A stretch of DNA of 64,000 nucleotides from the NCBI GenBank assembly GCA_020746875.1, contig JAGTJL010000003.1, positions 3,286,001 to 3,350,000 of the forward strand. Reading direction: 5' to 3'. Below are positions 22,031 to 49,245 of the stretch, piece by piece. A model generated the notes under the pieces. That model worked only from the letters and a program-made list of their open reading frames with translations. It did no database searches and had not been told where the DNA came from. Each line of letters begins with the position of its first letter. Position 1 is the first letter of the stretch. Made by a program: the position numbers and the translations under genes. The stretch comes from Rhexocercosporidium sp. MPI-PUGE-AT-0058 (taxonomy: Eukaryota; Ascomycota; Leotiomycetes; Helotiales).

Positions 22031-22800
22031 TAATTCTCATTAAAAGGGTCCTTCTCCTCTTTTAATAAAAGCTCGGTTAACTCGTTATTTAACTCTTTAT
22101 AAAAAGGGCTAAACTTTTTCTTTTTCTTCCTTTTCTTAATAATAATAATAGCCGCCTTACGCTTAATATTATTATAACGTATGCGGCGACGAGCCACACT
22201 TATATTCTTATTCTTATCCTCCTCTCCCTCCCTATCATTAACATTACTATTACAACAAGCTATTTCAACTACCGAAATAGCGAGGACCCGCGAGAACTTT
22301 AATAGGGCCTTTAAGTGTTAAATATTAATATTATTTATAATAAACTCGACGACTTATAATAACGTTATTTAATTACTTAGACATAGTGTGGCGGAGAGCC
22401 CGAGTCTCCTCTAATACCGTAAACCTTAGCTTTTCCATAGTTTTAGGCGCCTCCGCGGTCGCTATAAGTAATACCTCGTCGATCGACGAGGCGGCAACTT
22501 AGACTTCCGCATTATTGATAGCTATTAATAACGCGTCGTATTTCGGGTCTACAAACCATAGAAGCTAAAAAGTCAAAAGTATTAGTATCGGACTCGTTTT
22601 AGAGGTTTTCCGGACCTTAACTTATAAGGCGGCAAAATCCCTTTTAGGCTGTGTAATAAACACATTTCTTTAAGCTACTCTTGTCGAAGTAATAAGAGTG
22701 GCCCGGCTCCTTTGCAATCCGGCGCACGCAGCGCACGCAGCAGTTGCGGTAGGCCGCCGCCAAGGCTCTTAATAGGGTTAGAAGAGGCACTATTATAGTC
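22031..22800 (-). pseudogene. Antisense Cys-cluster gene inside element D
   Basis: This lies between pol and the 3' LTR of D, on the opposite strand. A Cys cluster is visible on the minus strand: CVRC at 22728-22739 and, 21 residues later, C-V-Y-Y(Cys to Tyr)-x6-C at 22632-22664. After a likely 57-bp intron (GT...CTAAT...TTTTTAG) a second frame reads VDPKYDALLIAINNAEV, then acidic and basic helical stretches. The last about 115 codons, down to the stop at 22031, contain a Lys-rich nuclear-signal-like tract (KKRKKKKK). The join between the second and last frames needs another intron or frameshift. Function is unknown. The upstream start was not found. The same Cys arrangement occurs antisense in copia G (48805-48876). 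Confidence 0.6.
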
Positions 22801-23230
22801 AAAATTCGGATTTTACTATAGAAGTCACGGGATTTTACTTACTTATTATTATTTATTTGTTTTAATTGACTGGCTGTACGTGTTAATAATTATATAGCGC
22901 AAATCGACAATTTAGGGTAACTTACGGAGAAGTGTATATTATTAAAGGAAAAAGAATTAACTCCTTAGAAAGTTTAACGTATATATACGCCAATACAAAT
23001 AAACAAATCGATGGCGCTAAGACAGCATAATATAATAAGTAACGGACCAGATTCAGACGCTTATTCCACCAATCAAATAAATAAAAGCTCGCCTTCCTAT
23101 AATATATTATTTATTATTATATAAGACCTCGCTTACGCTCGCGTAACCTCGCTTGACCTTAGATAAGAGCTCTTAATACCGTAATAATACTAAACTACGA
23201 CTAATTAAAGATTAAGAACAATCTCTTTTT

Positions 23231-23244
23231 TAAGAAGGGGGTAA
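23231..23244 (+). other. Polypurine tract of element D
   Basis: AAGAAGGGGGTAA directly precedes the TG of the 3' LTR at 23245, in the position and composition expected for a plus-strand primer. Confidence 0.8.
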
Positions 23245-23502
23245 TGTGACGATAGGTATACTTAAGAGCTTCTTAGCGAGTCAAGGAATTTAAGGGTTTA
23301 GAGGTAACTAAGTCATGCCGAGTCGGACTAATACCGGAGGGGTTTCGGAGGAGCCTATATATATGAACTCACACTCCCTTCATTCCTTTTTTCCTTTTTC
23401 ATCTTCTTGTTTCCTTCGTATTAGACCTATTAGCTCTCGATAGCCTCAGCTAAAGTACTACCATATACCTCTTACACCGCTCTCTTGGCTAGTGTCGTTA
23501 CA
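23245..23502 (+). repeat. 3' LTR of element D
   Basis: 258 bp, partner of 15844-16101; differences are mainly C/T and G/A. It is followed by the AAAAG target duplication and then by C sequence in register. Confidence 0.92.
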
Positions 23503-23507
23503 AAAAG

Positions 23508-24168
23508 ATTAATTAAATCCTTCGATATTCCGTAATCCGGAGTTATTACTTAAAGATAAGAGAACTTTTAAAGTCCTTTCGGCGAATTACTAGCTAAAGG
23601 CGCTTATAACGAAAATCTTCTTAATATTAATAATAATAATATTTATAATATACCTCTGTCTTAAAAAAGCTAAAAAGAATAAAGTAAAAACTTTCGTAAT
23701 ATTAATATATGAAATCGATTAAGAGCTGACTCGCCGCCGGCGAATAGTCTTAAATTAGTTAAGTGTCGAACTTATATTAATAAATAAAGACTTAATCCCA
23801 AAAGAAGCTTTAAAAGCTAAGTACGCGTAAGACGACGAGCTAATAAGTAAGAAGCTTTTTATTAAGTATTAAAAGTATACTCCTCTTTTCTCCCGGCAAG
23901 CTTCCGACGAGCTATTAGCGCATCGCTAAGGCGTAAACTACTAAATCGAGCTTATTAAAAAGAATAATTTATCTTTTAAATTCTTCCGGCGTATAATTAA
24001 AGAATAGCTATCGAAGATTAAGTAATATATTATTAATAACTTATATAAAGGTTTTATTAAACCCTTTAGCGTATTATATACGGCCCTTATCCTCTTCGCT
24101 AAAAAAGCCGACGGCAATCTCTGATTATATGTTAACTATCGGAAGTTAAATGCTTTATTTAAAAAAGA
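23508..24168 (+). pseudogene. Element C pol, RT segment
   Basis: This continues C after D, aligning with B about 10986-11640 up to the RT DYRKLN region (VNYRKLNA near 24130). It stops at AAAGA (24164-24168), the target duplication of solo LTR E, and resumes at 24492. Confidence 0.8.
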
Positions 24169-24486
24169 TGTGAGAATAGGCGAGCCAATCAGGAATGAGG
24201 AAGCGCAGTAGGTGAGGACACGTGATCAAAGACAAAGTAGAATTAATTGCTTACTTGCTTACTTAAAGAGCTAAAAGAACTCTTCGGTAGTTATATACAA
24301 AATAATAGCTTTTTTAAAAGCTTTTACGACTACGTAACTGATTACGTAGCTTATACGAGCTACGTAATTAAATACAAGCGTAATTTCCCGGAATACAAAG
24401 GTAATTTCCGGGCCGCGTAAGCAGTGGAAATTCCTTCGGCTATTCTAGGGTAGAATCGGCACGAGTTACCGCAGTGAAATCCAACA
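24169..24486 (+). repeat. Solo LTR, family E
   Basis: A 318-bp sequence beginning TGTGAGAATAGG and ending TCCAACA, flanked by AAAGA on both sides (24164-24168, 24487-24491) and with no internal region. This is the footprint of LTR-LTR recombination of a complete element. A second copy is at 60633-60914. It contains a perfect 11-bp inverted repeat (24341-24351 with 24358-24368) that the second copy lacks. Orientation is taken from the TG...CA ends. Confidence 0.85.
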
Positions 24487-24491
24487 AAAGA

Positions 24492-27417
24492 CCTGTACTC
24501 GATCCTTTTAATTAATAAGATAATAATATATATTTATAAAGTAAAAGTTTTCACAAAACTTAATATTTAATAAGCCTTTTACCGTATTCGCATATCTTTT
24601 AAAAGCGAAGATTATACGACCTTCCGGACTTAATATAATATATATAAGTATAAAGTCCTTTTCTTTAATTTTATAAATAATCCGGCTACTTTTCAGCGAT
24701 TTATTAACGAGATTTTAATAAAATACCTCGACGATTTCTGCGCGGCTTATATAAACGATATCCTTATATATTCGTTAACTCTCGAAAAGTATAAGATTTA
24801 CGTTAAAAAGATTATAATAATATTGTAAATATACGGACTTTAAGTAAATATTAAGAAATCCGAGTTTAACGTATAAAAAATAAAGTTCTTAAGATTTATT
24901 ATTAGCGTTAATAATATAAAAGTAAACTTAGAAAAGATTAATATAATTAAGGATTAACGACACGCCGGCAACGTACGAAGCGTATAAAATTATTTTAATT
25001 TCTATAACTTTTATTGCCGGTTTATTAAAGATTATAATTGTATTATTCGATCCCTTATAATACTTACCGGGAAAGACGTGCTTTTTAACTTCGATAACGC
25101 TTATAAAAACGCGTAGAAAACTCTCCGGGAAGCCCTTTAATCTGCGCCGGTCCTTCGCTACTATAACTTAATAAAGCAAACGCAACTAAAAACCGATTCT
25201 TTAGACGGGATCGTTACGGAAATCTTATCTTAAATATAAAAAGATTGCACTTATTACTTAATAAAATACTTTTTTAAAATTATAATAAACTCCGAGCTAA
25301 ATTATCTTATTTATAATAAAGAAATACTAGCGATTTTCCGGTTATTTAAATAATATCGCTTAGAGCTCTTAAATACTCAGAAAAATATTCTTATTTATAT
25401 AAACTACCGAGCTTTAAAATACTTTATAATTATTAAAGATTTTATTATTAAATAAGCTCGATAAGCTGAATTCTTTACGGATTTCTATTTTATAATTATA
25501 TATCGCACTAAGATAATTAATACGTTAATTAATACTTTATCTTAATAAGATTAAGACTTTATAATTACAAAAGCACGTAAATAAGCTATCCGTAATTAAT
25601 AATTAATTCCAATCGACAAAATCGACTAAAAAGTCGCCAGCGACCTTTAGCTTCCCGCCGGCGATCTTATAAATACTTATATTAAAGTCGTGAAAATAAT
25701 ACCCTTAATACTTATAAAAGCTCTTATTTCGGGGAACGGACTAAAGCCCGAGCTAAACGCAGGAATACTAATGGACTCAGAGACCCTCATTACGGAAGAA
25801 CTTAACCTAAACTTTATAATAACTTATAATATCGCCGAATATAATATTATTAATTAAGTGCTCTTAATTAATAAGTTGTCGTCGTCGCTAAAGCCTCTTC
25901 GATAAAAAGCTAAGGAATAGTCGTTAAATTACGAGTTAGCAAACGATAAGTTGCTTTTCTAAAAACGCCTGAAAATGCCTTTAAAACCGCCGGAGCTTCG
26001 CATAATATTAATTCGACACGTACACTCTCAGCCATTAGTAGCATATGCGAGGATCGGAAAAATAAAAATATTATTAAGCCGCAAATACTATTAAAATAGC
26101 CTTACTACGGATATAACTCGATACGTAGTAAATTATAATTACTTCCGGCAAAAAGCTAAAAAGATAAGACTCCTGGTTTCTTATATCCTTTGCCAATCCC
26201 CGCTCGGCTATATTAATACCTTATAATAGACTTTATAAAACTTCTATTAAATAAATACAGTTATAACTTCGCTATAATTATCGTTAATCGCCTGTCTAAG
26301 AAACCGGTCTTAATACCGTATAACGACATAATTACCGCTAAAAGTATAGCTATCTTCTTTTTCGTTTATTAGACTCGTTATTTCGGCATATTAGATTTAA
26401 TCGTTTCGGACCGCGGATTATAATTCGTTTATTTTTTTTTAAAAAAAGTATTATTATATTCTTAATATTAAAATCAAGCTTACGACGGCGTATAACTTAA
26501 ACGTCGACAATTAAATAAAAATAACGAACTAATATATTAAATAACGGCTCCGTCCTTTCTGTTATTATTACTAAGATAATTAAAGCGATTTCTTATTAAT
26601 TATAAATATTACTTAATTAACGTTACCGCATAAGTCCTTAAGCAATTTATCCCTTTTCCGGCTACTTAATAACGTTAAGCTAAAGACTTTTTGAGATTTA
26701 ATTAACTTAAAGCCTCCGGCTACGGCTATTAAGAAATTCAACCGCGAGAAAGCTTTATAAGTAGCTTTACGTATAAAAGAGGTCACCGAAGTCGTATAAT
26801 TATCCTTAAAGGACTAGCAAAAGAAAATAAAACAATTAGCGAACCGTAAGCGACGCGCCGTCGATTAAGACGCTAGCGACTTAATATTAATCGACACTTG
26901 GAACTAGAATATCGACCGGCCTTTAAAGAAGCTATTCGACAAGTAATACGGCCTTATTAAAGTAATCGCTAAAGAAGAAGAAAATTAAAAAGTTAAGCTC
27001 TTAAAAGATTAATTAATTTACCCCGTCTTCTATTTACACTCGCTCCGTAAGTACATTGATAACCCCTTGCTTAAATAAGCCAGAGCTACGCCGGCACTTA
27101 TCCAGCTATTACTTAAGTAAAATAAATAAGAAATTAAAAGCATTTTTAGTTTTAAGGTTATGCGAAATAAGCTATTCTACCGTATTAAATAGCTAAGCGC
27201 TAACGAAGATCTAGAGTAATACCTATGCTCGGATGCTATAATAGCTCCGCATATAATTAAACGATTCCACCTCGAGCATCCTAACGCTAAAAGCCCGCTA
27301 AGAGCTCTTTTAAAACAGCTAAAGGCTTATAATGCTAGTATCGACGATTATAACGACTTAAAGGACGATACGGTTATAGCTATAACTGCGCGAATATAAT
27401 TCTTTAAGAAGGAAGGG
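24492..27417 (+). pseudogene. Element C pol, RT to chromodomain segment
   Basis: The RT active site at 24748-24759 reads YIND (first Asp of the pair is Asn). RNase H and integrase follow in register with B. A chromodomain is near 27120-27200 (EIKSIFSFKVMRNKLFYRI). It ends in the polypurine tract AAGAAGGAAGGG just before the TA where DNA transposon F inserted. The 3' LTR follows after F. Confidence 0.82.
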
Positions 27418-27419
27418 TA

Positions 27420-27469
27420 ACGTCTCACCCCTAGATTCCGCCCACCCCTAGATTCCGCCCACCCTCGCT
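27420..27469 (+). repeat. Left terminal inverted repeat of F
   Basis: Starts ACGTCTCACCCC and pairs with 29204-29253 in inverse orientation. The 17-bp unit CACCCCTAGATTCCGCC occurs twice in a row, as in the right repeat; such paired units are candidate transposase binding sites. Confidence 0.85.
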
Positions 27470-27597
27470 TAACTCACCGCCACTCCTACCTACTAACTTG
27501 AATAATTAATTACTCTTCCATTCTTTAATCGATTCTCTTCAAATTTGGAATTCGCATTGTTTTCATCATAAAGCCTAAACATATTGAGTATGACATC

Positions 27598-29150
27598 ATG
27601 TCTGCGCTTGAGGAAGTCGCAAATGGCAAGTCTTTGCGAAAGGCATACTTAGAGTGGGGTATTCTAAGGTCTACACTTCGTGACCGCAACACAACGACTC
27701 AACTACGTAAAGAGGCTCTTAGTCACTTGCAAAGGCTACCTACGGTAATAGAGAATCGATTGACCAATTGGATTTTAACTCAAGAGTCTCTTAGTCATGG
27801 AGTTACGCACACACAGATTAAGGTATTTGAAGAAAAGCTTTTAGCACTTCAAGGAGACCACCTACCACTAGGAAAACACTAGATAACACGATTTTTAGCA
27901 CGTAATCCTGTTCTAAAGACTAAAAAGTAAATCTACGTCGATTCTGTACGTATCAACGCCGCTTATACCGAAGTTATTAAGCCGTGGTTTTAAAAGTTAA
28001 AGATTCCGGCTATTAAGGCCATTCTAGTTTATCAACGATAAAATATAAACGAGACTGGTATTATAAAAGGCTACGGTCTTAATAAATATATTATAAGAAA
28101 CGCTAAGAGCCGCAAGATTCAAGGAAAACAGCTAGGTTCACGTGCTTAAACGACAATCATTAAGTGTATTTCTGCAATTAAAGCTTTTACGCTACTAGCT
28201 GTAATTTACAAGGGAAAATCGGTCCAATAACAGTAATTTCCGTCTCAATTAGACGTATTCGACCAATAGCACTTTACAGCCACTGAAAATAGATAGACAA
28301 CTAATCAAATAGCCCTTAAATAGTTAGAAAAGGTCTTTATCCCTTAGACGAAACCACGTGATCATTTAGCAAGACTTCTCATTCTAGACGGCCATAAGAG
28401 TCATAAGACTACGGAATTCCTTTAGAAATGCCTTAAACACAATATATACCTTTTATTTTTACCTGCACATACGTCACACGTCTTACAACCTCTGGATTTA
28501 ACGGTTTTCTCTGTCTTAAAGCGTACCTACCGAAAAGAACTACAAAAATTAAGTTCTTTAATCGATTCTACTCCAATTAGCAAGCGTAACTTCCTCATTT
28601 GCTATTAAAAGGCACGTTAAGAAAGTATTACACCTTTTAATATTAAGGCGGGGTAAAGAACTGCGGGATTATGGCCGGTATCTATAGCCAAGCCATTAAT
28701 AAGCCCTTTGCTATTAGAAAACAGTAATAAATCGACAAATCCATCTTTTCCAAAGCCTTAAGAGACGCTAATACTACCTCCGGAAGTAACTAATACTTTA
28801 ATTAAAGTTCAGACTCTAAGAGCTAAGAAAGATTTATATATATAGATTCGTACTTTAGCTAGCGGATCACATAATTAACTTCTAACGCAACGTTTGCTTT
28901 TTAAGAAGATTATAAAGGGAATTAATAAAAGAGATTACGAATTAGGAAAGGCAAATATAAAGATCAAAGAGTTAAAAGAGAGATTAAAGCAGTTAAAGCT
29001 AAAGAAAAGGCGGAAAGTCCGAACGAGTCCAAATTCCAAGTTCGCCACAACACGTGCTATTAAAAAGGCTTAAATCGCAGCTAAAGAACGCCAAATTAAG
29101 TCTTTAGAATCAGAATCAGGAGGAGAATTAAACTCTATAATATCTTGAAT
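27598..29150 (+). pseudogene. Fot1/pogo-like transposase (DDD), degenerate
   Basis: The first 94 codons are open (27598-27882): a helix-turn-helix (LEEVANGKSLRKAYLEWGI) and start of a CENP-B-like region. The same frame then continues past stops at Gln/Trp positions. The catalytic triad is visible: first Asp changed to Asn (NETG at 28048), second intact in LILDGHKSH (Asp at 28387), third in LQPLDL (Asp at 28495). A basic C-terminal tail (KLKKRRKVRTSP) and coiled region end near 29150. Total length of about 515 codons fits the family. With the first Asp lost and several stops it should be inactive. The start at 27598 follows an in-frame ATCATG and aligns with the usual N-terminus. Confidence 0.88.
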
Positions 29151-29203
29151 AAGAGTTAGCGCAATATAGAGTTATTAAGTGTTAAGTATCAAATACTAGA
29201 ATT

Positions 29204-29253
29204 AAGCGAGGTAGGCGGAATCTAGGGGTGGGCGGAATCTAGGGGTGAGACGT
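29204..29253 (-). repeat. Right terminal inverted repeat of F
   Basis: Inverse complement of 27420-27469 with a few mismatches, ending GGGGTGAGACGT next to the TA duplication. Confidence 0.85.
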
Positions 29254-29256
29254 TAA

Positions 29257-29554
29257 TATTACGACCTCCGATACGCCTCGTATTCTAACCGATATAACTC
29301 GTAGCATCGCTGATTATACAAAGGCGCTAAGCCGAATAAAGAAGACTATTTGGCGAGCATGCGACGTATTATTATAAATAGCGTCAGACTACGCTAAGCT
29401 TTATTAAGAGAGCCCTCGTGTATTTATACTCGAGCTCTCTTTAATAAAAAGCTCTCTTTTCTTCTTTGTCTTTTCTTTTTGATTTTAAACGTAGCTTTAA
29501 GCCTAAATACAAAGCTATCTCTTATACCGTATTAACTTTTGGCCAGCCGTAATA
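29257..29554 (+). repeat. 3' LTR of element C
   Basis: 298 bp, starting TATTACGACC (TG to TA) and ending GCCGTAATA. The two ends resemble the LTRs of A and B, but the middle 150 bp differs (GCTAAGCCGAATAAAGAAGA...), so C belongs to a sister LTR subfamily. Complete copy of the truncated LTR at 1-229. Confidence 0.85.
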
Positions 29555-30960
29555 AAGTATATATTTTAAGCCAATAGACTTTAGGTTTAGCGCCGTAAAG
29601 GGATAGCGCGACTCGGATCGATTTAACTTAGCTTTGTCTTCCGGCAAAAGTAATAAATTTAAAAAGTTTATTTCTTTAAAGTCAAGAGAATTATTATAGA
29701 TGTCTATCGACCTTTAATAGTAGACGAATCTAGTAAAGGTTGAGTTATAATGAATTATGTTATGCTAAAGCTTTAAGGTATTAATTAGTCCCGAGAAATT
29801 AATAAATAGATTCTTAAGACCTTAAAATGCCTTTAAAAAACTCAAAAGAATAATATATATATTAATATTATAGTCCAATAGGCCTTAAATAACTTTTAGT
29901 GACGAGAGTCTGATCGTTTAGTTAAAGCTAATGACTTTAGTCAGAAACTCCTTTAACTTAAAATAGTAATATAATATTAAAGACGACAGCTTATGAAAAT
30001 TAAAAGCATATGTAATTTCTTTTTACGCATTCTTAAGGGAGATGTTACTTAAAAATAAAGTTTTTAAGGCCGGAAATATTACCTTAAATCGATCGGCCAA
30101 TAATTTCAAAACTTAGCTTATAAAGAAATTTTAAGAGTCATTAAAGTTAAAAGAATCTTCCTTTAATTAATTAATAAAACCAAGTCGAAGTTCTTTAAGA
30201 CGTTCCGAATTATTCTTTAGAGCGCGACTAAGAGCAGTAAATTCTTCAGACTATAAATTAGTTTATGAGATGTGTCGAAAGAAGCAGAAAGCTAAAAGTT
30301 TATGGGATTTTCGCCGTCCGTATTAATGGGGCAAGCGCCTCCCGTTATAAAGGATATAAATTCGATTAAAGTCTACTTATTCGTAATGTAGCCTCGCTCG
30401 CCAAGAATCTCGAGTGGGACACAAGTGCCTATTTCTTAACTATCGAGTTCCAGTTAATTATATTACTTCGTTATTTTAAAATAATATATGAGAGGCTCGA
30501 TGTAGACCTAAATTTCCGTAGACTTTCTTCTCTTAATTACTTAAATAATGATATTAGTGACGTTGTGAGCTTCTCTAGTCTTGGCCGTCTTTTGGATTCG
30601 GGCATTTCCACATAAAATCCCATATTTTTATAGTAAAGGCATCGCTTTTTTAAAACGTAGTAAAAACTCGATTATACTTCGACGGTCTTCACATAGTCGA
30701 GGGGATTTGTCGGCTTAGAGCGGGTTCGTAAGAAAGGTTTAACCTCGACCCTCTTAAGATGCTAGTCGTCTTTAGCTCGAATGATAATAATCTCGTAGAA
30801 TTTCCGGATGACAGCGTCATAAAGTGTCTTCAAAACTTCGCACAGTTGCTTTAGATTAGTTCTATATAGAATTTATATCCGTTAAAAAGAGGAACACGTT
30901 TTACTTTAGAGCTTATACCTGTTTAATAATTAAGTAAAAGTTGCGAAGTAATGAAGTGTG
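29555..30960 (-). pseudogene. F-box/LRR-like protein gene, RIP-degraded, split by element C
   Basis: The minus strand reads as one long protein with stops only at Gln/Trp positions and about one frame change near 30260. N-terminal part (30880-30300) includes LCEVLKTLYDAVIRKFYE, PFLRTRSKPTNPLDYVKT and SKRRPRLEKLTTSLISLF. The C-terminal part has leucine-rich stretches: NFFISQVLKLL, FKVIFPALKTLFLSNISL, ITYAFNFHKLSSLIL, AFQGLKNLFINFSGL and, near the end, LLLLPEDKAKLNRSESRYPF. I recognise this pattern as a large family of fungal F-box-like, LRR-containing proteins common in Helotiales; that match is from memory. The frame runs into the right end of element C at 29555, so C probably broke the gene and the 3' end lies left of the window. 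The start codon was not found. Confidence 0.65.
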
Positions 30961-31384
30961 GAAAGCTTTATAATAGACTACCTTAGTTTGATTGATAGCC
31001 CGGACAAGGGCTGTAAAAGAGTCTGACTAAGGTTCTTGGCTAAGGTTTTTATTATTTTAATGCTTTCCTTTGTCTTACTGACTATTTGAAAGCGCTTTGC
31101 GACGTCCGAAAAGAGATGTAAAACCAAGGGAAAAGGCTTCGATATTAGCCACGGACTAGCTTTATATTTCTAGTACCGCTAGGTCTAAAAGCCACCGATT
31201 TTAGTTGAATTTGAGAGCTAGGAGGTGCTATTGTTAATAGTTTAAAGATGTAGTCCGGATGCCGCCATAATGTCCCCTTTAGCATGGCTTCTTTATTATA
31301 ATCATAACCACGGCTTTATTAATAATGTCTTTATACTTATTAAGCATTTAATTACGTTAATAAGTTAAGGAATGCCAGTTCGAT
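30961..31384. other. Unassigned stretch between F-box relic and urease relic
   Basis: Moderately AT-rich, probably holding the 5' end of the minus-strand F-box-like gene (a short readable minus frame LAKNLSQTLLQPLSGLSIKL lies at about 30990-31050). No start, promoter or other feature can be fixed. Confidence 0.4.
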
Positions 31385-32476
31385 ATGCCTTCACCTTCGC
31401 CTACTTCTGCGATTGCTATTAAACAATGCGAAGCCTCCTTATTCTCAACTACTTCCATCAAACCTCCTTACACGAAAAACCTCACGAATACCACGGAAAT
31501 CGCAGCCCGAAAACTAACCCCCCCTATACTCGGCCAGGTAGCCGGGAGAAGCGAGCGGAGGTATGACAGGATGGTGGGGGAGGGTAATGAGCTAGACAAT
31601 TGGGATTATGCCAACAGGTTGTTGATAGTGTGTGATCATCTCTCGAAGAATATCCCGGAGGATGTAGCGTTCGCCGAGTCGCGCATCCGCGCTGAAACTA
31701 TAGCCGCTGAAGACGTGCTGCATAATCTTGGTGCTATAAGTATGATGTCTTCTGATTCACAAGCTATGGGACGATGTGGCGAAGTCATTTTAAGGACGTA
31801 GAGTACGGCGTATAAGAATAAAGTGCAGAGGGGGAGTTTAGCTAAGGACGAAGGGACGGGGGCGGATAATTTTAGGGTGAAAAGATATGTGAGTAAATAT
31901 ACTATTAATCCGGCGATTAGCCAGGGGATGAGTGAGGTTATTGGGAGTGTGGAGGTGGGCAAGTTGGCGGATTTGGTGGTTTGGGATCCGGCTTGGTTTG
32001 GGATGAAGCCGATGACGGTGGTGAAGAGTGGGTTGATTGCTCAGGCTATGATGGTATGTTTTCTACCTCTTCTTCATTTCCAGCTCTTCTCCCCTTTCTT
32101 TTCCTCTGAACCCTTATCGAAAACTTCCGCATCTCTAACAATCACTGTACTACAGGGCGATCCCAACGCCTCCATCCCAACCGTACAACCCATCCTCTCT
32201 CGTCCAATGTTCGCGCCCCTCATACCCTCCACATTCATTCTCTTCGTCTCACAATCCTCCATCACAAGCGGCGCAATCGCCTCCTACAACCTCCGTTCCC
32301 GCGTCCTACCAGTCAAAAATTATAGGAATATCGGGAAGAGGGACATGGAATTCAATGATGTGATGCCGAAGATGAGTGTTGATCCGGAGAGTTATCGCGT
32401 GGAGGCCGATGGCGTGCATGTTACGGCTGAGGCGGCGGAGAGGTTGCTATTGACGCAGGGGGGGTGTGTTCATTAG
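31385..32476 (+). pseudogene. Urease C-terminal fragment
   Basis: The protein resembles the C-terminal third of fungal urease, the Ni enzyme that hydrolyses urea. Landmarks: [20 protein letters not shown] (about 31637), [15 protein letters not shown] with the Ni-ligand Asp, [39 protein letters not shown] and a terminal LTQGGCVH. An intron at 32054-32155 splits MM from GDPN. The N-terminal two thirds, including the Ni-binding His pair and carbamylated Lys, are absent. The flap motif expected as CHHL reads CDHL. A TAG at 31799-31801 replaces the Trp after VILRT. About 45 extra residues sit before LLIVCDHL. Sequence from about 31415 aligns. It is a non-functional relic, less mutated than the transposons around it. 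Confidence 0.85.
32054..32155 (+). other. Spliceosomal intron of the urease relic
   Basis: 102 bp, GTATGT donor, CTAAC branch site at 32135-32139, TACAG acceptor. Removing it joins AQAMM to GDPNASIP as in intact ureases. Its length is a multiple of three with no stop, so unspliced translation runs through it. Confidence 0.85.
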
Positions 32477-32616
32477 GGGAGGGGGGAGGGGAGGATAAGC
32501 ATGGAGGTGAGTGATAATATAATAAAGGGCGGGAGGCGGGAGGAGGGGAAAGGGGGTGGTTGATCCTCGCTCAAACGAACGCGGCGAAGAAGGAAGGAAA
32601 TCATGATTCTGCGATA
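32477..32616. other. Intergenic, G-rich then AT
   Basis: A purine-rich stretch (GGGGAGGGGGGAGGGGAGG) follows the urease stop. No gene or clear site is seen. Confidence 0.5.
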
Positions 32617-33670: not shown

Positions 33671-33943
33671 TCATGCAGCAGGGCAACTCGCCTTAAATGA
33701 GCGTAGCAAGTCGTCTCTTACAGCAGGTGCTGGACAACCAGCATTGCAGTAGTTACACTGCTGTGTGCCTGCTGCTGCATTGAATGTACCACCACTGCAT
33801 GCTGGTGTGCAGCTTACTGAATCCACTTTGCGATACACGCAATCGAGGCAATTATTCGGGTTGTTACAGCAAATTTGGAGAGCATTTTGTCCAACTACTC
33901 CCAAGATCAACATGCTAATTGAAAGACAGCTGAGGAGTTTCAT
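33671..33943 (-). CDS. Small secreted cysteine-rich protein (effector-like), intact
   Basis: A complete 90-residue frame. Residues 1-18 (MKLLSCLSISMLILGVVG) form a typical signal peptide; cleavage is likely just before QNALQ. The mature part of about 72 residues has ten Cys (pattern CC, C, C, C, C, C, C, C, C), as expected for disulfide-stabilised apoplastic proteins. I do not recognise the fold or family. A TATA-like box lies about 115 bp upstream (34057-34066). There is no intron in the frame. The codon composition is normal (about 50% GC), unlike the RIP-degraded surroundings. The frameshifted tandem copy at 34341 supports that this is a real gene. Small size, secretion and a repeat-rich neighbourhood are typical of fungal effector candidates, but function is unknown. 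Confidence 0.8.
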   Translation of the reverse strand: MKLLSCLSISMLILGVVGQNALQICCNNPNNCLDCVYRKVDSVSCTPACSGGTFNAAAGTQQCNYCNAGCPAPAVRDDLLRSFKASCPAA

Positions 33944-34056
33944 GGTTGTAGAATTGACGTTAAAAAGATAGAGGTGGTTTATTTAAATGAATGTCTTGAG
34001 TTGGATAAGTATGTTGAAATAGAAAGTAGCAATCCGAGTTGTTGAGAATCAAGAAG

Positions 34057-34340: not shown

Positions 34341-34608
34341 TCATACAGCAGGGCAATCCGAGTAAAACTGGCGTAATAGGTCGCCTAGTGCACCTGCTGG
34401 ACAACCAAAAAAGCAGTAGTTACACTGCTGTGTGCCTGTTGCTGGACTAATTGTACCACCATTGCATACTGCGCAGCGTGATGAATCCACGTTACGATAC
34501 ACGCAACTCCAGCAACTACCCCGGCTTGGCACAGCAGCGTTTAATGTCGGCCGCCCCAACTACGCCCAAGATCAACATGCAAAAGGAAAGGCAGCTGAGA
34601 AGTTTCAT
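34341..34608 (-). pseudogene. Frameshifted paralogue of the secreted cysteine-rich protein
   Basis: The ATG at 34606-34608 begins a signal peptide nearly identical to the intact copy (MKLLSCLSFCMLILGVVG). The frame then meets TAG just after a run of four G at 34519-34522. Relative to the intact copy there is one extra base at this run. After it, the second frame (open from 34559 to the stop at 34341) continues the homologous part with CWSCVYRNVDSSRC and the conserved GTQQCNYC. The Cys spacing is partly changed (CFFGC for CNAGC). Either it is a recent pseudogene or a sequencing error in the homopolymer. Confidence 0.78.
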
Positions 34609-37715: not shown

Positions 37716-37723
37716 ATCTTAAC

Positions 37724-38893: not shown

Positions 38894-38901
38894 ATCTTAA
38901 C

Positions 38902-39450
38902 CTTTAAACCAGTTCCAAAGACTCAAACGAAAAGTTAAATAATAACGAATTTAAAGATTTTAAGGCCGAAATAATATTAATAGTGACTAAAGAGCACTAA
39001 ACTTTATTTTATATTTAAATTGTCCTTCCTTTATTAACGCAAGCTTAAAAAGCCGCTTATAAAACTATTCCCTTTTAATCTTTATGTATTTTCATTTCTT
39101 TAAAGATAAGGTCACCTTCGATTATAATTAAAGATAGGTGTTTAATAGTTTTTATAGTTTTTAATTTTTATTTGTCTTTTTTATTTATTCTTTTTTAATT
39201 ATATTACGCGTATTTTTAAGTATTTTAACGCCTTATTACGTTCGTCTTTTATTTTATATTTATTTTTTAGATTTTAAAAGCTTTCTTTTTTAGACCTTAA
39301 TATAAAAGTCTAGTCTTATGTATTTTCTTTTTTATTTCTTAAATCATTAATTGTTCTCTTTTATTAATAATTATTGCCTTTTAAGCGGGGTTGGAATGCC
39401 TCTTGCTTAAGATTGTTTATTTACTTTATTTAATTTAAAGTCGCGTGTGT
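38902..39450 (+). pseudogene. 3' tail of the gypsy relic
   Basis: Directly after the hAT duplication the sequence continues with a readable FKPVPKTQTKS, plausibly the last pol residues of the gypsy relic, then very AT-rich DNA. A GGGGTTGGA purine stretch near 39396 could be a polypurine tract; no LTR was identified. Confidence 0.4.
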
Positions 39451-42400
39451 TTATTTAAAAAGTAAACATTATAAGAAGTATTAATTTCTTAATTAAAAAT
39501 AAGTTAATAATTTTATTATATGTTAAAAAAAGAGAAGTAACACTTTAAGGCGAGAGGATTAATAAGCTCGCTTAAAGAGTACTTAAACTAGCCCTCCTTA
39601 TGTCTTACTCTTAATTTCTTATATTAATTATATTAAATTTCAAGAATCCTTAATTTAGGCTAAGTCCCCGCAAAAAGCCTTAAAAGCTACTTTAAGTCAG
39701 GAAATCCAGCCGAATTTAACTTATAATCTCCGATTAAGAGTTAAATTACTTATAAAATATTACTTAAACTAGACCGAGTGAGAAGCCGATTAAAGGCAAC
39801 TTATAATCTCGGCTCCTGTCTTTCTTTTCTGCAATCGCTGGCAATAAGCACTTGCTTATAAGTTATAATTCTTATTATAAATAAGGATAATAATAGCTCA
39901 CCGAATTCCGTAAAGGTAATCTGAGCAAGTAATAATTACGGTTTAGTATATCTTTTATTAATATTATAGAGGGGAAAACACCAAGCACATAATAAGAGGG
40001 TAGTAAAGCAAGTGCCGGAAGGTAAACGTAAGAAATACTTATTTAATAAATATTAAAAATATTACATATTTAAAGAATATAATTTATTAAAGGAGAGGAA
40101 AGGTATAATTTAAATAAAAAGGAAAAGTTATAATAGTAAAAATCGTTATTATTCTTAAAGAATATTACCTTAAAGGCTATCTTTAAATATAATAAGATGT
40201 AAATTAATTACGTAATAAATAAACCTTTAAAGTTAACCCTATTATATACGTCTCCCTTTTAAAAAACTTATATTCGACCTCGAGTAAAAAAGTAAAAACT
40301 AATATTATAGCTTTAAAACTTTAAATACTTAAAGGAAAATGTATTTAAATAAAGATAAATAAGTATTAAGTGACTTATACTTTACTTTTAAAAGTAAATA
40401 ATTGTCTCGCTTAATACTTTTAAATATTATTTTTTACTTTATTATTCTTTTTTTTTCTTTTCTTTTTAATAACTTTATTATTCTTTTTTATAATACTTTT
40501 AAGGAGGCTTTACGCGTTTTTTTACACTTATATTAATCTTTTTATACTTTTTAATACTTATTATATTATTTTTATCATTTAAACTTATCTTTTTAAATAT
40601 TATATTTAAATAAACTTTAATTTTAATAAAATTAAAGTAAGTCTTTTAAAATAAATCGACGTATAATTAATATTTTAAATAAGTTCTCGACTCCTTTTTT
40701 TATAACGTAAAGACTAATTTTCCTTATAAAATAAAGATTAATCTTTATAACGCGTCGAATTTGTTAATATTCCCTTATACTTTAAATTAGCGTATTTTTA
40801 ATAATTTTACTTTTTTTTTATATTTTTACTTTAATAAATCTTTTATAAACCTTTTTAACCTTTTAATTAATATTAAAAATAAAAGGAAATATATTAAAAA
40901 TATATTAAAGAAATAAAAATATATAAATATATAAAATTAAAAGTAAATAATAATTAAAGGACGGTCTTCTTATTTTTAAAATTTAAAATATAATAAAAAA
41001 GTAAAAAAAAGCTAATTAAAGCATTTCTTTTCTTAACTTAATTAAGTCTTTTCTTTACTTTTTTTTTTTTTTTTATTTTTACTTTTTTAATAAGTTAATA
41101 TTAAATAATAACAAAGTTAATCTTAAGTGGTTTTCCTTCTTTTTATTTTAACGGTTATTATATTAGATAAAAGCGCTAATAATGTCTTAATAATTTCTTA
41201 TTATATTTTCTTATTATTTTTTAATAAATAAATAAATTACTATAAGCGGCCGAGATTTATTATATTTAAAAAGAAAAGAGAAAAGATATTATGTTTTATA
41301 TATTAACTTCAAGTTACTTAGTCTTTCTCGCAGTCTCTTTTTTTTCTTAATAATAAGTTATAAAGTAAAAGCCTCTCGAGAATAACCCTTAAAGCTTTAA
41401 TAAATTATAAGCTATTTTAAACCGCCGTTATTATCGCTTTTCTTCGACTTATTTCTTATTATTAATTAATTAAAAAGAATAAAAGGCTAAAGATAAGTTC
41501 CCTTTCGTTCGATATTATTAACTTTTAAATCTTAATAATTCTTTAATATAATTTAAAGACTTAAAACAAAGGCGCAGCTTTAATCGCTTTATTAAAATAA
41601 AAAGTGTTTTTAATTTTATTATTTATTTTAAGCCTTTATTACTTACATTATAAGTAATTTTTAAATTAATAATATTAAGCTTTTTAAAAGTCCTTTTTTA
41701 TTAAAGTAACCCCTTTTTATTTAAAAATAAAGTTCTCTTTTAAAGAACTTTATATTAATATAACTTTATAATAACTTTAAAAGTAATAAAAACATTCCCT
41801 AAACACTTTTATAAGTCGGTATAAGCTAAGCCGGATTTTAAATTTAAGAAAAAAGTAAACATATTTTAAGAGCAAAAGTAATAATACTCTTTCTTAATCG
41901 ATTAATATTTTTAATTTAAGGGTTTAAAGACTGATATTTAATTAAAAGAAGTTCTTAACTTAAAATTTAATTAATTTACTTAATAAAAAATAACTTTATA
42001 AAGACAAAGTTAAAAGAATACTTATAAATAGCTTAAGTGCTTATAATAAGACACTATTTACTCGCTTAAGTCCTTTATAAAGTTATTACCGCGACAGAAT
42101 TATAATAATAGTATTTAAATTCCGATAAGCGAGATTTCGGAACGACTAAGAAAGAGGCGCATAATTTAAATTAATTAAAATCTCCTTTTATATAAAGTAA
42201 TTTTATTTATTTTATTATTTTAAAATTAATTAATTAAAATTCTAAAGAAATAAAGTCGTTATTACTTTAATATTTTAATACGTTACTTAAAATGACTTAA
42301 GACGGGCTTGGCCTGTCATAATATTTAATTCGCTGTCTTATATTTTTACTTTTAATTAAGTTATTATTATTAATACTTAAGTAACGTAAGGGCCTAGACT

Positions 42401-44047
42401 TAGTAGCCGTCGATCGAGAAAACTCATAAAGTTTAATAATAACCTTTATATTAAACTTTAAACTTACAACAACTCGACCGCTGATTTCCGAGGACTAATA
42501 GTTTAATTAAAAATAAAGCATTTATAATATAAAAGGTTAAAGGCGTAAAAAAAATATAAAAAAGTTAAAGATTTATAATTTATTAACTGTACTTATTTTA
42601 TTTATTTTTAATTTAACCGTTACGGTCTTAAAGTATTAAGCTCCGTTTTTAAGCACGCTATATTAAAGTTATTAATATTTAAATAAACCTTTTATATTAT
42701 TAATAATAAATTTAACGATTTTTATTATTAATATAAGGCAGTTATAATAGCTTATGTTCTTTATAATAACTTATGGCCTGTCGCGCGCTTTATTATTTAT
42801 TTAAATATATAAATTAATTTTATTTATTTAATTTTATAAACTCTTTTAAATCTTAAGTCGTTTAATTACGCGTAATCTCTTAATCGTTATATATTTTCTT
42901 TTTAAATTAATAACTTATTTATTATAGCCTTAAGAGTTATTTTAATTAAAATAAATCTTTTTTATTATAAAGTGTTTAAGTAATATTAAAGAAAAAATTT
43001 TAGTCTTTAATTACCTTTAGGGACTTATTATATAAGCCTGTTTTAATAATATATTTTAAGGGGTTATTGTCTTTAGTGCTTAGCCTATTAATACATTAAG
43101 ACTGTTAACGCTTTAAAACGGCTTGTCGAAAGAACCTCGTCTAACTTATTATTTAACTTTTTATAAAATTTAATAAAAAGTAAGTACTCGATTAAATTTT
43201 ATTTTTTTATAGCGTAAATTATAATCGATTTAATTTAATTAAACTATTTCACGAAGTTAAAACTTTTTTTAAGTTTCTTAAAAGCTTCTTTAGTTTTATA
43301 AAATATTAATAATTATTATATTTATAGGCTTTTAAACTTATACGTTTAGCGTTAGTAATATTAAATTATTTAAAGGGCAGCCGCCGTAAACACACTATTT
43401 GACTCGACTGGGATGCTAGTGTTGTCGTTGCGGAACGACTTATAAATACGATCGGAGGGTATTTATAAACGTAAATAGTATTTAAAGTGCTAAGGAGATT
43501 TTTATTATTATTTAAGGAAAAGCCTTTAGTATTTTAATATATGCCTTTACTATTATGCCTTAATCTTCGTCCTCTTCGTAAAGTATAAAAAGTACGTCTT
43601 CGCCACAGTTTAGCGTTCGATAACGTTAAATAATAAATTATAAGAATTATAATAAAAAGTAATTAATAATATTAATTATAGCGATTAAGTTATTTATTAA
43701 AAGAGTAAGTAACGACTCGATATTGACTTTATTCCGTGTGAATTAACCTTTTAAGTACTTTAATAATAATTCCATCGTTTTATATAACTTATCTTATAAG
43801 CTTTTTAAAGTCTTTAAGGCTTTATAAATTTCGCTTTTTAAGAATAAGTTTAAATTAATCTTTATTATTATTATATTAAGTTGTCGTTAAAAGCTTGTCG
43901 TCTTTATAATAAATAAAGCGTTTTCGTTTATAAAATAGCTTAAGGTAATTAATTATAAAAGTATTATAAAGAAATATATTATTAACTCTTAACTTTTTTA
44001 ACTTATAATAACTCTTTTTAAGAAAGGCCTTATAAATTTCATAAGGT
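39451..44047. repeat. Extremely AT-rich, unclassified degenerate DNA
   Basis: About 4.6 kb with no recognisable protein in any frame. Composition and frequent TTAA/TATAA runs match RIP-degraded transposon DNA elsewhere in the window. It may be the far end of gypsy relic H (minus strand), because MULE and copia G would have split H here, but no motif proves this. A slightly GC-richer patch lies at 43375-43470. Confidence 0.5.
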
Positions 44048-44055
44048 TTTAATTA

Positions 44056-44108
44056 GGGGCCAGCTAAATCGCCTTGGGCAAATGGCTAAACCGCCTTGCC
44101 AAGGCTCG
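44056..44108 (+). repeat. Left TIR of the MULE
   Basis: Pairs in inverse orientation with 46710-46762, with a few mismatches (for example GGGCAAATGG versus AGGCAAATAG). Confidence 0.88.
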
Positions 44109-44334
44109 GCGTCTCGGTTATGGGGTGTGCATTTAGGATACTCGCGAATACGTATAAATTACTATTAAAGCTAGGTATCCCTGATGCAACTACTTAATTA
44201 ATAACGCCTGATCTTGCGTATTACTATTATCTTATTAGGAGTTAATATTATACGGAGCATTTGCTTCTGTCAGCTGACTCTCTATGAGTATCACGGACTA
44301 GTTTACTCGTGCTTGCATTAGAGAGGACTGTATA

Positions 44335-46550
44335 AAGAGCTTTATTTGGTAAGAAATAGGGGTTTTTGGAGTAGCCGGCTGGGGTGGTTCAGTAATAGTT
44401 AGAGTCTCGATGTCGTCGGTATCACTGAAGTCGTGATCTTGTATTAGAGCTAAAGCCTGATTAATAGCTTCTTGTATTGTATATGCAGTAAGCTTAGTAG
44501 TATCTTTAATACTATTTGACTGGTAGATTGATGATATGCTACGTTAATAACCACGCTCTTTTGCTGTTCCCGGCTTATATGAATCCTGGTGCTCACTTGC
44601 AAGTCGTTGTATAATTAAAGCAATTGTAGTCGGTGTTTGACGCATAGTAAAGACTTGCTGAGTTGATGAAGATACTGAAGGAAGGATAGCTGGCGCAGAG
44701 CTTGAAGGTAGCTCGAATTGTGAAGGCTCACGGCGAGTGTTCGAAGGTGCTATACGTGATGGTTTGTTACTACTATTAAAAGCCCCCTTAGGCTTGCCTT
44801 TGCTTTTGACCTTAAGAGGATTTAGTAAAGGCAGGGAAAGCCGATAAGTATTTAAGGCCGGCTGTATTGAAATTGGCCTGTCGTACTACTAATGAGGATG
44901 TATTTGAGCTAATAATATATATTTATGAACTCGTCGGCTCGTAAAGATTTGATGGTAGTAAGGTAAACCTAAAGACTTAGTTGTAACGCAATTATAGCCG
45001 TATTGAGGAGGCTGGTTATTAGAGTTTAGCTTGCTTTGCTCTTGCTTAATTTTTAGTAAAGCGTAAATATAAACCTGAGGAAGGACAGTAGCGAATAAGG
45101 GAGTATTCATACTGTGTTTCGGCTTCATTTTCTGTTGAGTAGTGGTAACTCGTATATTCTCATATTAGGCTTCCCAAAATAGCTGCAATTTAAGGAAAAT
45201 ATTACGTAAATCTCCATGCCTTCGCTGTAAATACCTCTTAAGAGTTGCGTGATAACTTTTAATAGGAGAGGTTATAGTAACACTAAAGTAGTAGTCTTAA
45301 TTAATCTAAAAAGCGACGAGTTTCTTCTTCTAAAGAAGCTATATTCCTGTGACATAACTCATAGCACCTGCTGGGTATTAGATATATATATTCTATAAAC
45401 GATTATCATATTATTACTTAGATATACTAGTTAGTAACTTATTCCAGGAGATAAGGAATGCTTAAAAGCGTGGGTGGCGTGTTTAGTTCTTATCGTTACC
45501 TTTGATTAGGCTAAGGAAGAACTTCTTGGTTTTAGCCAGCACGTTTATATTAATGTGTTATTAATAGAGGAGGTGACGAGCTGAGGGAAACTATGTATTA
45601 AAGCATTTGATAAGAGTTAATTCTTTATTTGTTATAATAGAAAGTAGTTCCGGAATCGTGTGCTTAGATATAATAGCTCTTAGTTGCGTGAGCGCCTATT
45701 TGTAGTCTTTTTCCGTCTTTTCTGACAGGAAGCATATTCCCAGCTGAATTATTATATTATTGCCTGTTATTCCGCATATATTTAGCAATAGCATATTGAA
45801 TTGGTTTGTTTTGTATATGCAATCGAGTAAAAGAACATCGGAATGCTGCTTTCAAAGCTGAATTAAGGCGGGGGCGATGAAAAAGAGCTGCCGGAGGTGA
45901 CTACTTTTAGGCTTATACGTAAAGGAATAATTGTTGTCTTGTAGTTCTTATATAAATTGTTAGCAAATAGCAGACGGTTATTATTAAGTTATGTACCTTT
46001 AAAAGCTAGTGTAACGGTGATATGTTATTAAGCTCTTTGGACTTTGATTTTTATACTAGATTTGATATATCCTTAGAAGTTAAAGTCACTCCGGTGTCTT
46101 CTTAGCGCAAGGTAGATATGATCTCAGTATTTGATAAGCCAGCTTTTGTAAAGGTATTAATCCGAGAAGCTGTTTCCGCCGAAATAGCAGCTAATTTGTG
46201 TGTAGGATAGGCAGAAGAGTCTGCAGACCTTGTATAGTTATGCTCTCCCTCCTTAACTTCAACTTGCTAATTCCCCGTCGTCTTATCTCGAGTCAATACT
46301 ACCTTTATCTTGTAATCTGTCTTTTTGCTACTAGTATTCTTGCGTCGATTCATCTCGTTGACGTGCTCTTTTTTGCCTTTGTTGTCGTATTTCTTAGCAC
46401 GATCGCAGACGTAGACCATTCGATTTGGTGTTTTATCGCGCCGGAGGAAGGCATAGCTATATTCTTTTGCATGCCTTTGAATAGTAGTAATCGCAGTATT
46501 AATTATAATATAAGTTTCTTTTGCAGGAGGGGGGCCGCAAGCTTGTGCGG
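44335..46550 (-). pseudogene. MULE transposase with FAR1-like N-terminus, inactivated
   Basis: Minus strand, about 735 codons. The N-terminal FAR1/FLYWCH-like DNA-binding part reads YSYAFLRRDKTPNRMVYVCD, then NRRKNTSSKKTDYKIKVVL and EGEHNYTRSADSSAYPTHKL. The MULE core has the first Asp intact in LLLDCIYKTNQF (Asp at 45822). The second motif reads ITNKELTLI with Asp changed to Asn (45627). The later HLLCxWHIN motif has become HLLY with two stops. A stop-free C-terminal block (45128-44889) is SWIM-like: CVTTKSLGLPYYH, where the second Cys is Tyr. The low-complexity Ser/Pro tail ends near 44335. Only a handful of stops, all at Gln/Trp, so RIP has just started. The start codon is uncertain. Confidence 0.88.
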
Positions 46551-46709
46551 AGGAAAACGATATGTTGAGGGCAAAAGTGGTATGGTAAGAGGGGCGCTGA
46601 AGGTGAGGCTCTGAATATGCCCTGCATTAAGGTTAAGTAGAGTCGCTAATAATTTGTATGGGTTAGTACCTTTGATAAATGTACGGGCGCAGTCAATCAA
46701 AAATTAAGC

Positions 46710-46762
46710 GAGGCCTTGGCAAGGCGGTTTAGCTATTTGCCTAAGGCGATTTAGCTGGCCCC
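46710..46762 (-). repeat. Right TIR of the MULE
   Basis: Inverse copy of 44056-44108, ending AGCTGGCCCC next to TTTAATTA. Confidence 0.88.
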
Positions 46763-46770
46763 TTTAATTA

Positions 46771-47080
46771 TTAAAAGTTAAGCTTTTTACTCCTTAATAT
46801 ATTAATTTCCTAAATAAAGTCGTACTTAAGAATTAAGTCTTTAATTTATAATAACTTATTTTAAATGTCCTTTTTTACGTTAAAAGCTTTTTTCTTTTCT
46901 TATTTACGACGTGTCTTTTAAAGTTTAACTTCTTTTATATTATTATTTTACATTTTATATTAAAGAGTTTAAATATAAATTAAATCGTTAATACTTTTAA
47001 TATCTTTTAAAAAAAGGCTTTTTTAAGTAAAATAACGTATTTTAATAAAAAGAACTGGTTTTTTACCGTAAACTATATAA
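46771..47080. repeat. AT-rich degenerate DNA between MULE and copia G
   Basis: 310 bp without recognisable coding. It is host sequence for both insertions and joins 39451-44047 on one side and 55445 on the other once the inserts are removed. Confidence 0.5.
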
Positions 47081-47085
47081 AAAGG

Positions 47086-47274
47086 TGTCGTACAGATGTG
47101 GAGCAGGCTTTTCGTGGTTCAAGAGCTTTACGATTAACGTAAAGAGTAAGAGTTTAAAAGATTTATTAAAATAAGCGTTACCCTTTACAAAAGAGGACTG
47201 TAACCCGAGTATATATATACGTGAGTGCTTACGAGAGTATATATATAACTAATAGATTACGTTAAGGCGCGACA
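47086..47274 (-). repeat. 3' LTR of copia G
   Basis: 189 bp; on the plus strand starts TGTCGTACA and ends GGCGCGACA. It matches 55251-55439, including a GAGTATATATATACGTGAG block. Confidence 0.92.
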
Positions 47275-47284
47275 CACCCCTATA
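47275..47284 (-). other. Polypurine tract of copia G
   Basis: Read on the minus strand: TATAGGGGTG next to the 3' LTR. Confidence 0.6.
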
Positions 47285-48054
47285 GTAAGGCTCCGTTATA
47301 TAAATAAGCCTTGCTATTTAAAGGCGTATAAGCAGTCGAGAGATATAATATAAACTCTTTAAATATATATATTAATTCTTAGTAAAAGTATGGCGCTAAG
47401 CAATAAATTAATATTTTTAGAATACTATAATAAATAAAAATATTAATACGCGCTTTAAAGATATAATATGCAAGGACTCTATATATTAATATAAGCAGTC
47501 TGCTAAGTAATTAATATTAATAACAAATGAAAATATAAATACGTATTTAAATTATATATAATTAAATAAATAAAATTTAAAGATATAATTAAGTTATAAT
47601 AATTAAGTAAATAAAATCTTAATTATTATGTCTAACGCGTGTAAATCGCAGGTTTTAAAAGTAAGGCTAAAGTAAGGTTCGGTCTGCAGTTAAGATCTCG
47701 TGCCGTCCCGTCTAATTATTAAGTTATTAAGTTATAATTAATAAATTTAGTCTTTTTAAAGTAATTACTATATATAGTAGGAAGCCGCAACAGTATGTGC
47801 CAGCCTTTTATTAGCTTATATAATGCGCCGCCTCCCGGGTTAATAGGTTTATTATTAATCCAAGCGTCCCGTACTATAATAACGTAATTATAATTACTCT
47901 TAGAAATGTATATATATTGACCTTTATATTACTATAATTAACCTTTACTTAATATTAACGCACTTTATACTCGCGTGCCTGCCTACCTGCCTATTTCTTT
48001 TTCTTATTTTTTAATTTTTTATTTTTTTTAGTAAATTCTCCTCAATTACTAGCC

Positions 48055-49245
48055 ATGCCTCCTAAAGCTTTTAGAGTAGCGACTGCGCGCATTAATAATT
48101 AAATCGCAGCTCGCTAGGTAAGTTCTTTTTTAATTTAATTTCTTAATTTTATTTTTAAGTGACCTTAATACCGTTAAACTAATTATTAATAATTATATTA
48201 TAGGATTTTAAAGATGAGTTCGATGACTAAGAAGTGTTTAGTAATAAGCTTATTAATAAGCTTCTTAATAATCCTCTTCTTACTCGTTCGGTCGTCAGAA
48301 TAAATCTTAAAGATAATTAATAGTATTTTTTTTTACGCGAATATAAAAATGCGCTTATTAATAACTTTAATAATAAGTTAATTTTCCCTTAATCTTTTCG
48401 TATTAAGCTAAGCTCGCCATTTAAGAAGACTCTTACGCGTTCTTTTAATGTTTTACTATTATTAATTATATTAAGTAAAAGCGTTATTATATTAAATAAA
48501 AATGGCTTTTAATATACCTCCTTTACTTCGCGCGTCTCGCGTCTTAGTTTAATTCTCTTTCTTGCCCCTTTTCCTGCTTTTAAGACTTGCACTCATTTTT
48601 TATTAACTTTAAAAAAGCGTAAATCGTCTCGTACTCCATTTAAGCCTCGCTCTTCTATTAAGCGCGCTCGAGGTATATATACATTATTTTAAAGCTTACT
48701 TTTTATTAATAACTTATTTTATTTATATTAATTAAGATTTAAGAAAGGAGTTTACGGATCCTTATTTATTATATATTCGCGCTATTATTTATAGCCGTAG
48801 TAATTGTAAACACTACTTCGCTAATACTTTCGCTATTAAAAGTCGATGTTATAATTATACCTCTGGTTATAAATGCGATTCCGTTATAAGAAATGTACTT
48901 AAGTATAATAAAAGATTAATTATAGTTATAAACTTTAATAATAAAAAGGTATAATAATTGTATTATAATTAATTAAGTATTTTATTAATTAATTTATAAA
49001 GTATTAAAAAGTATAAAATTACTTTAAAAGCCTTAATAAAAGACTTAGTAAGTAATAATAAGTTTAATAAAGACATAAAATTAAATCTTTTGGTGCGCTT
49101 TTAAAAGCTAGGTCTAAAGCGTAATAAGAAGGTTAATTTTAATAATAATATTAGTATTAATGCGAGATCTTTAGCGGAGTTTAGTAATTTTATATAGGGT
49201 TTAAAGAAATTCGCGAAGGTTTTAAAGACAATAGTTACTTATTAA
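48055..49245 (+). pseudogene. Antisense Cys-cluster gene inside copia G
   Basis: Three exons on the plus strand, opposite to pol. Exon 1 begins ATG at 48055 (MPPKAFRVATARINN) and ends before GTAAGT. Intron 1 is 48118-48203, intron 2 is 48673-48736 (GTATAT...ATTAAG); both keep the frame. Exon 2 is about 156 codons with only four stops and ends in a basic tract (KKRKSSRTPFKPRSSIKRAR). Exon 3 has the Cys cluster at 48805-48876: C-K-H-Y(Cys lost)-x10-C-Y-N-Y(Cys lost)-x5-C, then VLKYNKRLIIVINFNN and a long helical tail to the stop at 49245. Function and family are unknown. Same arrangement and location as the antisense gene of gypsy D. Confidence 0.65.

Follow-up and report, generated by a model that had tools for sequence, protein, structure and literature searches.

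A stretch of 64,000 nucleotides from the ascomycete Rhexocercosporidium sp. MPI-PUGE-AT-0058 (Leotiomycetes, Helotiales; assembly GCA_020746875.1, contig JAGTJL010000003.1, positions 3,286,001 to 3,350,000), hereafter called the window, contains two long terminal repeat (LTR) retrotransposons of different superfamilies. Element D belongs to the Ty3/gypsy class and element G to the copia class. Both carry an additional gene that is located between pol and the 3' LTR, runs antisense to pol and meets it tail to tail, and whose product contains a six-cysteine module (Table 1). A first-pass annotation had proposed that a single mobile accessory gene was captured by both elements. Here, we describe the two genes, their relatives in the host genome (62.7 Mb in 60 contigs), from which all genome-wide copy counts are drawn, and the comparisons that bear on their origin.

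Table 1. Elements D and G, their antisense genes and their cysteine modules (positions in the window).
Feature	Position	Strand	Remarks
Element D, Ty3/gypsy	15844..23502	+	ends by eye from the printed sequence; RVT_1 match
D LTRs	15844-16101 and 23245-23502		258 nt, 91% alike
D target duplication AAAAG, 5 bp	15839-15843 and 23503-23507		read by eye
D antisense gene, three exons	22790-22626, 22564-22358, 22308-22033 (22033..22790)	-	
D six-cysteine module, exon 1, codons 18 to 53	22632..22741	-	extra Cys column at codon 17
Element G, copia by sibling copies	47086..55439	-	ends by eye; RVT_2 beside siblings
G LTRs	47086-47274 and about 55254-55439		
G target duplication AAAGG, 5 bp	47081-47085 and 55440-55444		read by eye
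G antisense gene, four exons	48055-48117, 48204-48672, 48737-48948, 49000 to stop near 49245	+	introns of phase 0, 1, 0
G six-cysteine module, exon 3	48763..48876	+	codons 187, 190, 204, 215, 218, 224
First G cysteine of the first-pass annotation	48805..48807	+	CGT 11, TGT 4, TAT 4, TTT 1 of 20 copies

GC content falls to 0.18-0.30 across much of the window, and the dinucleotide ratios resemble those of repeat-induced point mutation (RIP). The 35 aligned D copies, compared over 648 exon columns, differ by transitions in 373 columns and by purine-pyrimidine changes in 15, a single one of the latter being found in two or more copies. Since the differences are almost all transitions, the D copies were near-identical before decay. 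Decay of this kind complicates the reading of cysteines because TGY in a decayed copy can be an original cysteine or an arginine codon, CGY, after a C-to-T change; columns were considered safe when they contain TGY and never CGY. The frame tests were performed on these 35 D copies and on 20 G copies, a subset of all copies. Three of 37 D loci, which covered less than 85% of the query, were dropped.

The gypsy assignment of element D is based on a Pfam RVT_1 match at 18965-19264 (E-value 2.8e-13), accompanied by another at 19268-19411. In the window copy of its antisense gene both splice donors read ATAAG, the G being lost. Copy L050 has GTAAG at both donors and TAG and AAG as acceptors. Its frame is open throughout and encodes 216 residues, in which the six-cysteine domain is followed by a central region enriched in A, L and E, then by a long basic tract and an acidic terminal segment. 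The spliced frame has no fixed stop, defined as a codon that is a stop in at least 90% of the 35 copies, and the other five frames have 4-15. Base composition is three-phased in the exons (p 2.8e-8), and the introns lack such phasing (p 0.68). Searching the genome with the D domain returned 91 matches, which were split by rank into 64 D copies and 27 more distant ones, a division that left one match of 54% identity in the distant group. RVT_1 was found on the opposite strand, 3.2-3.6 kb downstream, in at least 30 of the 64 D matches; scoring covered 150 of 387 RVT_1 candidates, so that the neighbour counts for D and for the related family E are lower bounds.

Family E, seen at L023 and open at L097, is represented by 44 matches in the genome; for at least 16 of these, RVT_1 is found 3.3-4.05 kb downstream on the other strand. 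Its first exon reads MASICCRCARHLASGVVDHVCAFSKANSTKCDRCRDQKSRCVA. The donor of this exon is in phase 0, two residues past the last cysteine, as in D, and the second E intron is also in phase 0. At L097 the open antisense gene adjoins a pol whose last domains are SH3_Tf2-1 and Chromo; the two stop codons are about 110 bases apart. Five of the 44 E matches, on C6, C12, C23, C20 and C18, are 95-100% alike in the domain and contain no stop, which makes the E family look young beside its decayed kin. Family F corresponds to L079 and to the 17 of the 27 distant matches that were examined (L080-L096); the family has the same six-cysteine module, and L079 has the same donor. The assignment of F to gypsy is based on the DNA of L079 at 1266-1444, which resembles D elements beyond the antisense gene; against it counts that RVT_1 was in place beside none of the 27 distant matches among the scored candidates. 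The phase-0 donor of exon 1 was read directly in L050, L097, L023 and L079, and the three families agree in residue similarity, module spacing and donor. Codon-position differences between the first exons of D and E number 19, 25 and 25, without a clear excess at the third position, and are not by themselves proof of selection. The sequences place the D gene in an old family of gypsy genes that this genome has in D, E and F alike.

The five decayed pieces of the window G copy that were submitted to Pfam gave no match, and the copia class of element G was established through its relatives: at least 25 of 99 matches of the G gene across the genome have RVT_2 1.5-3.8 kb downstream on the other strand. 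This tally leaves out the two weakest of 101 matches and used 150 scored RVT_2 candidates of 236, two of 152 RVT_2 matches falling outside that list. The spliced frame of the G gene, whose last exon was tested only to 49218, is maintained as one frame across its introns. Fixed stops occupy 6 of its 321 codons, against 9-57 of 320-321 in the other frames, and each of the six is a stop in all 20 copies or in 19 of them. At one of the six a copy with CAG is found, at two a single other non-stop variant and at three none; the six are presumably decayed CAA or CAG codons. Here too the exons are three-phased (p 5.9e-12) and the introns are not (p 0.45). A basic tract, shorter than that of D, is located in exon 2. 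The gene was found in the G family and in one related fragment, L098 (C25:323400-323800), which keeps both first cysteines and diverges after the first part of the module; no antisense cysteine module was found in the 2.2 kb behind an intact copia RVT_2 at C7. Both antisense genes recur in tens of decayed copies. On these points the first-pass description is supported: a gypsy and a copia element each have, in the same slot, an antisense gene that is spliced and present in many copies.

A cysteine cluster had been reported in both genes as one motif, and each gene indeed has a module, but in G the motif as written does not hold. Its first cysteine is CGT in 11 of 20 copies, most simply an arginine codon that a RIP-like change would have turned into cysteine in some of them, and the G module lies in another register. 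Safe cysteine columns are codons 17, 18, 21, 33, 43, 46 and 53 of the D gene, with the single-copy column 191, and codons 190, 204, 215, 218 and 224 of the G gene. Codon 187, which is TAT in all 20 G copies and cysteine only in L098, was added to the G module. The module reads C-x2-C-x11-C-x9-C-x2-C-x6-C in D and F, C-x2-C-x12-C-x9-C-x2-C-x6-C in E and C-x2-C-x13-C-x10-C-x2-C-x5-C in G, the spacing of the latter being similar to the others without being equal.

Residue similarity between the D and G modules was then evaluated against shuffled controls. When the D/E/F domain was compared, profile to profile, with L098 and six of the less decayed G copies, the score was 10.1, a value reached by 72 of 200 column shuffles; with all 20 G copies and L098 the count was 93 of 200, and with L044 and L098 it was 103 of 200. 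The set-up most favourable to a shared domain, in which D and E extend into exon 2 and G into exon 4, yielded an E-value of 0.12 (20 of 150 shuffles). When the loops were anchored on the cysteines, four G copies were equalled by 1011-1503 of 3000 shuffles, against 0 for D-E, 0 for D-F and 1 for E-F. Decay does not deprive the loop test of its power: compared with the distant E family, each of 17 of 17 decayed F copies outscored 991 or more of 1000 shuffles. A column-set test allowing any residue seen in a column gave 341 (D-G), 788 (E-G) and 513 (F-G) of 1000, and 1 (D-E), 0 (D-F) and 2 (E-F) in the controls; whole proteins gave 42-343 of 400, against 0 of 400 for D-E. In all whole-module and whole-protein tests the similarity of D and G beyond the cysteines is at chance level, and D-E, D-F and E-F pass.

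Gene structure differs as well. The D and E genes have a phase-0 donor two residues past the last cysteine, whereas G has a phase-1 intron before its module and none just after it; the D and E modules are N-terminal, whereas that of G follows codon 186. A genome search with the G module exon retrieved the 101 matches mentioned above. These are G family members plus a few fragments, and no D, E or F place was recognised among them. RVT_2 was found near one of 44 E matches and one of 27 divergent matches, and RVT_1 near one of 99 G matches; our guess is that nested insertion produced these three cross-class neighbours. The proposal of one domain, or one mobile gene, in both elements is not supported by these comparisons. 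The first-pass annotation had itself named a lack of similarity beyond the cysteine spacing as the outcome that would speak against it, and this is the outcome obtained here.

The spliced D protein gave 4391 candidates in a large protein search, none with an E-value of 1 or less. In Pfam, the D protein had no match, the E protein two weak ones below the cut-off and one G piece a single weak one below the cut-off; the three domains gave none up to an E-value of 10, and the D and E proteins matched no Pfam family, TRP28 included. A sequence search of the Protein Data Bank (PDB) found nothing believable, the best hit of the D/E/F-domain profile being a zinc finger stretch of the nuclear receptor NR5A2 (E-value 0.49, not significant). 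The fold model of the E domain, with a predicted local distance difference test score (pLDDT) of 73.5, places a short helix at each C-x2-C pair, as would be expected of a two-zinc cluster, and had no match in Foldseek or VIA-align and none among PDB folds. The G model (pLDDT 47.6) was poor and was not used.

The fungal Zn2Cys6 cluster has the motif C-x2-C-x6-C-x5-12-C-x2-C-x6-8-C. The modules described here resemble it in their two C-x2-C...C halves and in the helices of the E model, but their first loop has 11-12 residues (13 in G) instead of six and they have neither a PDB fold match nor, for the three domains, a Pfam match; we do not place them in this family. The retroviral CCHC zinc knuckle, C-x2-C-x4-H-x4-C, was considered too, and its pattern is absent from the module.

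The successful tests among the D, E and F genes, the chance-level tests between D and G and the differing introns and module placement argue for two separate accessory genes. We consider it probable, at roughly 0.6, that the D and G antisense genes were acquired separately and have different origins, that each encodes a zinc-type six-cysteine module and that the likeness is convergent. Several observations weigh against this reading. G is heavily decayed and an old kinship could be lost. Throughout the 321 codons of the G frame, safe cysteine columns occur in a single module of D-like spacing and nowhere else, and six cysteines placed randomly in 70 codons produce such spacing at 4.7e-6 to 5.6e-4, with limits that were set afterwards. 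Chance is thus unlikely, which leaves two explanations, a common origin of great age or convergent evolution of a compact metal site. An R stands two places past the second cysteine in all four groups. The hydrophobic stretches that the first-pass annotation had quoted behind the cysteines are alike when compared in isolation (29 of 2000 shuffles, and 13 of 2000 when two copies with less decay are used), but they had been picked for likeness and that of D lies behind an intron. Finally, the tail of the E protein is acidic, and the protein lacks a long basic tract.

A rival reading is that the two modules are genuinely related: a single zinc module would have been captured by, or passed between, gypsy and copia lineages and would have diverged until little more than its cysteines was left (C-x2-C-[VAI]-R). 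The like spacing, the common slot and orientation, the isolated hydrophobic stretch and the most favourable profile comparison, whose score no more than 20 of 150 shuffles attained, agree with such kinship. We nevertheless judge it unlikely, given residue tests at chance beside controls that pass, the different intron positions and placement, and the genome search with the G exon, in which no D, E or F place was recognised. It is distinctly improbable that the antisense RNA rather than a protein matters, pairing with gag-pol RNA and leaving the frames as by-products. Both the antisense orientation and the short distance from the gene ends to pol agree with it, and such a role is discussed for plant antisense open reading frames (ORFs) in PMC7264820; but residues, cysteines, frame and splice donor are retained across D, E and F, and a gene beyond pol would pair little with pol itself. 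Least probable of all is that the G frame is a chance frame in a decayed stretch, as its six near-universal stops, the want of any intact copy among those seen and the poor fold model might suggest, because none of the other five frames has so few fixed stops, its introns keep one frame, three-phase composition is confined to the exons and the cysteines are confined to one module.

Under separate acquisition, the resemblance in spacing would reflect convergence on a compact zinc module, a putative binder of two zinc ions. The proteins would be translated from a transcript antisense to gag-pol that begins between the 3' LTR and the gene. Our likeliest guess is that they are small proteins of the nucleus that bind nucleic acid or chromatin, and they may tune the expression of their own element or its access to host chromatin. 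Roles of this kind have been suggested for plant antisense genes and for the antisense proteins of human T-lymphotropic virus (HTLV).

An antisense gene in the slot between pol and the 3' LTR has already been published. The gene brtn is antisense in the Boty-like (BcGypsy1) gypsy elements of Botrytis cinerea (Zhao et al. 2011, Virology 417:248, as cited in passages of PMC8365987, PMC7264820 and PMC4227169), and Boty is listed among elements with antisense ORFs in this place (excerpt of PMC7264820). The D and E genes occupy the same position and orientation in gypsy elements, a comparison of position and not of sequence, and the Chromo domain of E pol has its counterpart in the CHROMO domain that PMC4227169 attributes to Boty-like pol; element G differs in being copia. 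A Monilinia transcript resembling BRTN is mentioned in an extract of PMC5987419. In plants, Grande gene23, RIRE2 and Retand TRP28 are antisense ORFs of the same slot and orientation as the D and G genes, for which nuclear or DNA-binding roles are suggested (sections of PMC7264820 and PMC11963269); the former describes a promoter upstream of maize gene23 and the latter the TRP28 genes of Retand elements. The D and E proteins differ from these in lacking a TRP28 or other Pfam match. Bdelloid rotifers, in which additional ORFs are shared between diverse retroelements according to PMC5408684, offer a precedent, likened by description, for the presence of a single extra ORF in retroelements of different kinds. 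In the open-licence literature searched, no title or abstract opening dealt with antisense cysteine genes of fungal copia elements.

Other features surround the two elements. A 2.7-kb repeat at 44051-46773 has inverted ends of about 54-61 bases and copies in L002 (91%) and L003 (87%), the former near an F-type antisense gene; it is likely a DNA transposon. The less decayed segment 31364-32476 (+) contains open frames that look like pieces of a urease alpha subunit. The cysteine-rich open frames at 33674-33982 (-) and 34344-34559 (-), in which a 92-nt piece repeats at 82% and the first of which has a signal-like start, are perhaps a tandem pair of small secreted proteins. A short sequence found twice in the window (24251-24486 and 60709-60914, 91-94%), with a similar-looking frame behind an intact copia in L100:849-1040, is perhaps an LTR or a small element.

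Antisense genes behind pol have been described in some plant elements and in Boty, without known function. The case of element G also carries a caution, since cysteine motifs taken from one RIP-decayed copy can be products of mutation from CGY to TGY. That one antisense gene has been kept, with its domain and splice donor, through three gypsy families argues that its protein is useful to the element. A short, defined domain is now available for testing, and a copia element has an antisense gene of its own. We advance only tentatively, as a doubtful but conceivable generalisation, that the antisense accessory proteins of fungal LTR elements make repeated use of a zinc module with six cysteines, placed in the same slot of gypsy and copia by single descent or repeated recruitment. 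If this were true, it would point to a common way for LTR elements to steer their own transcription or the chromatin of their host.

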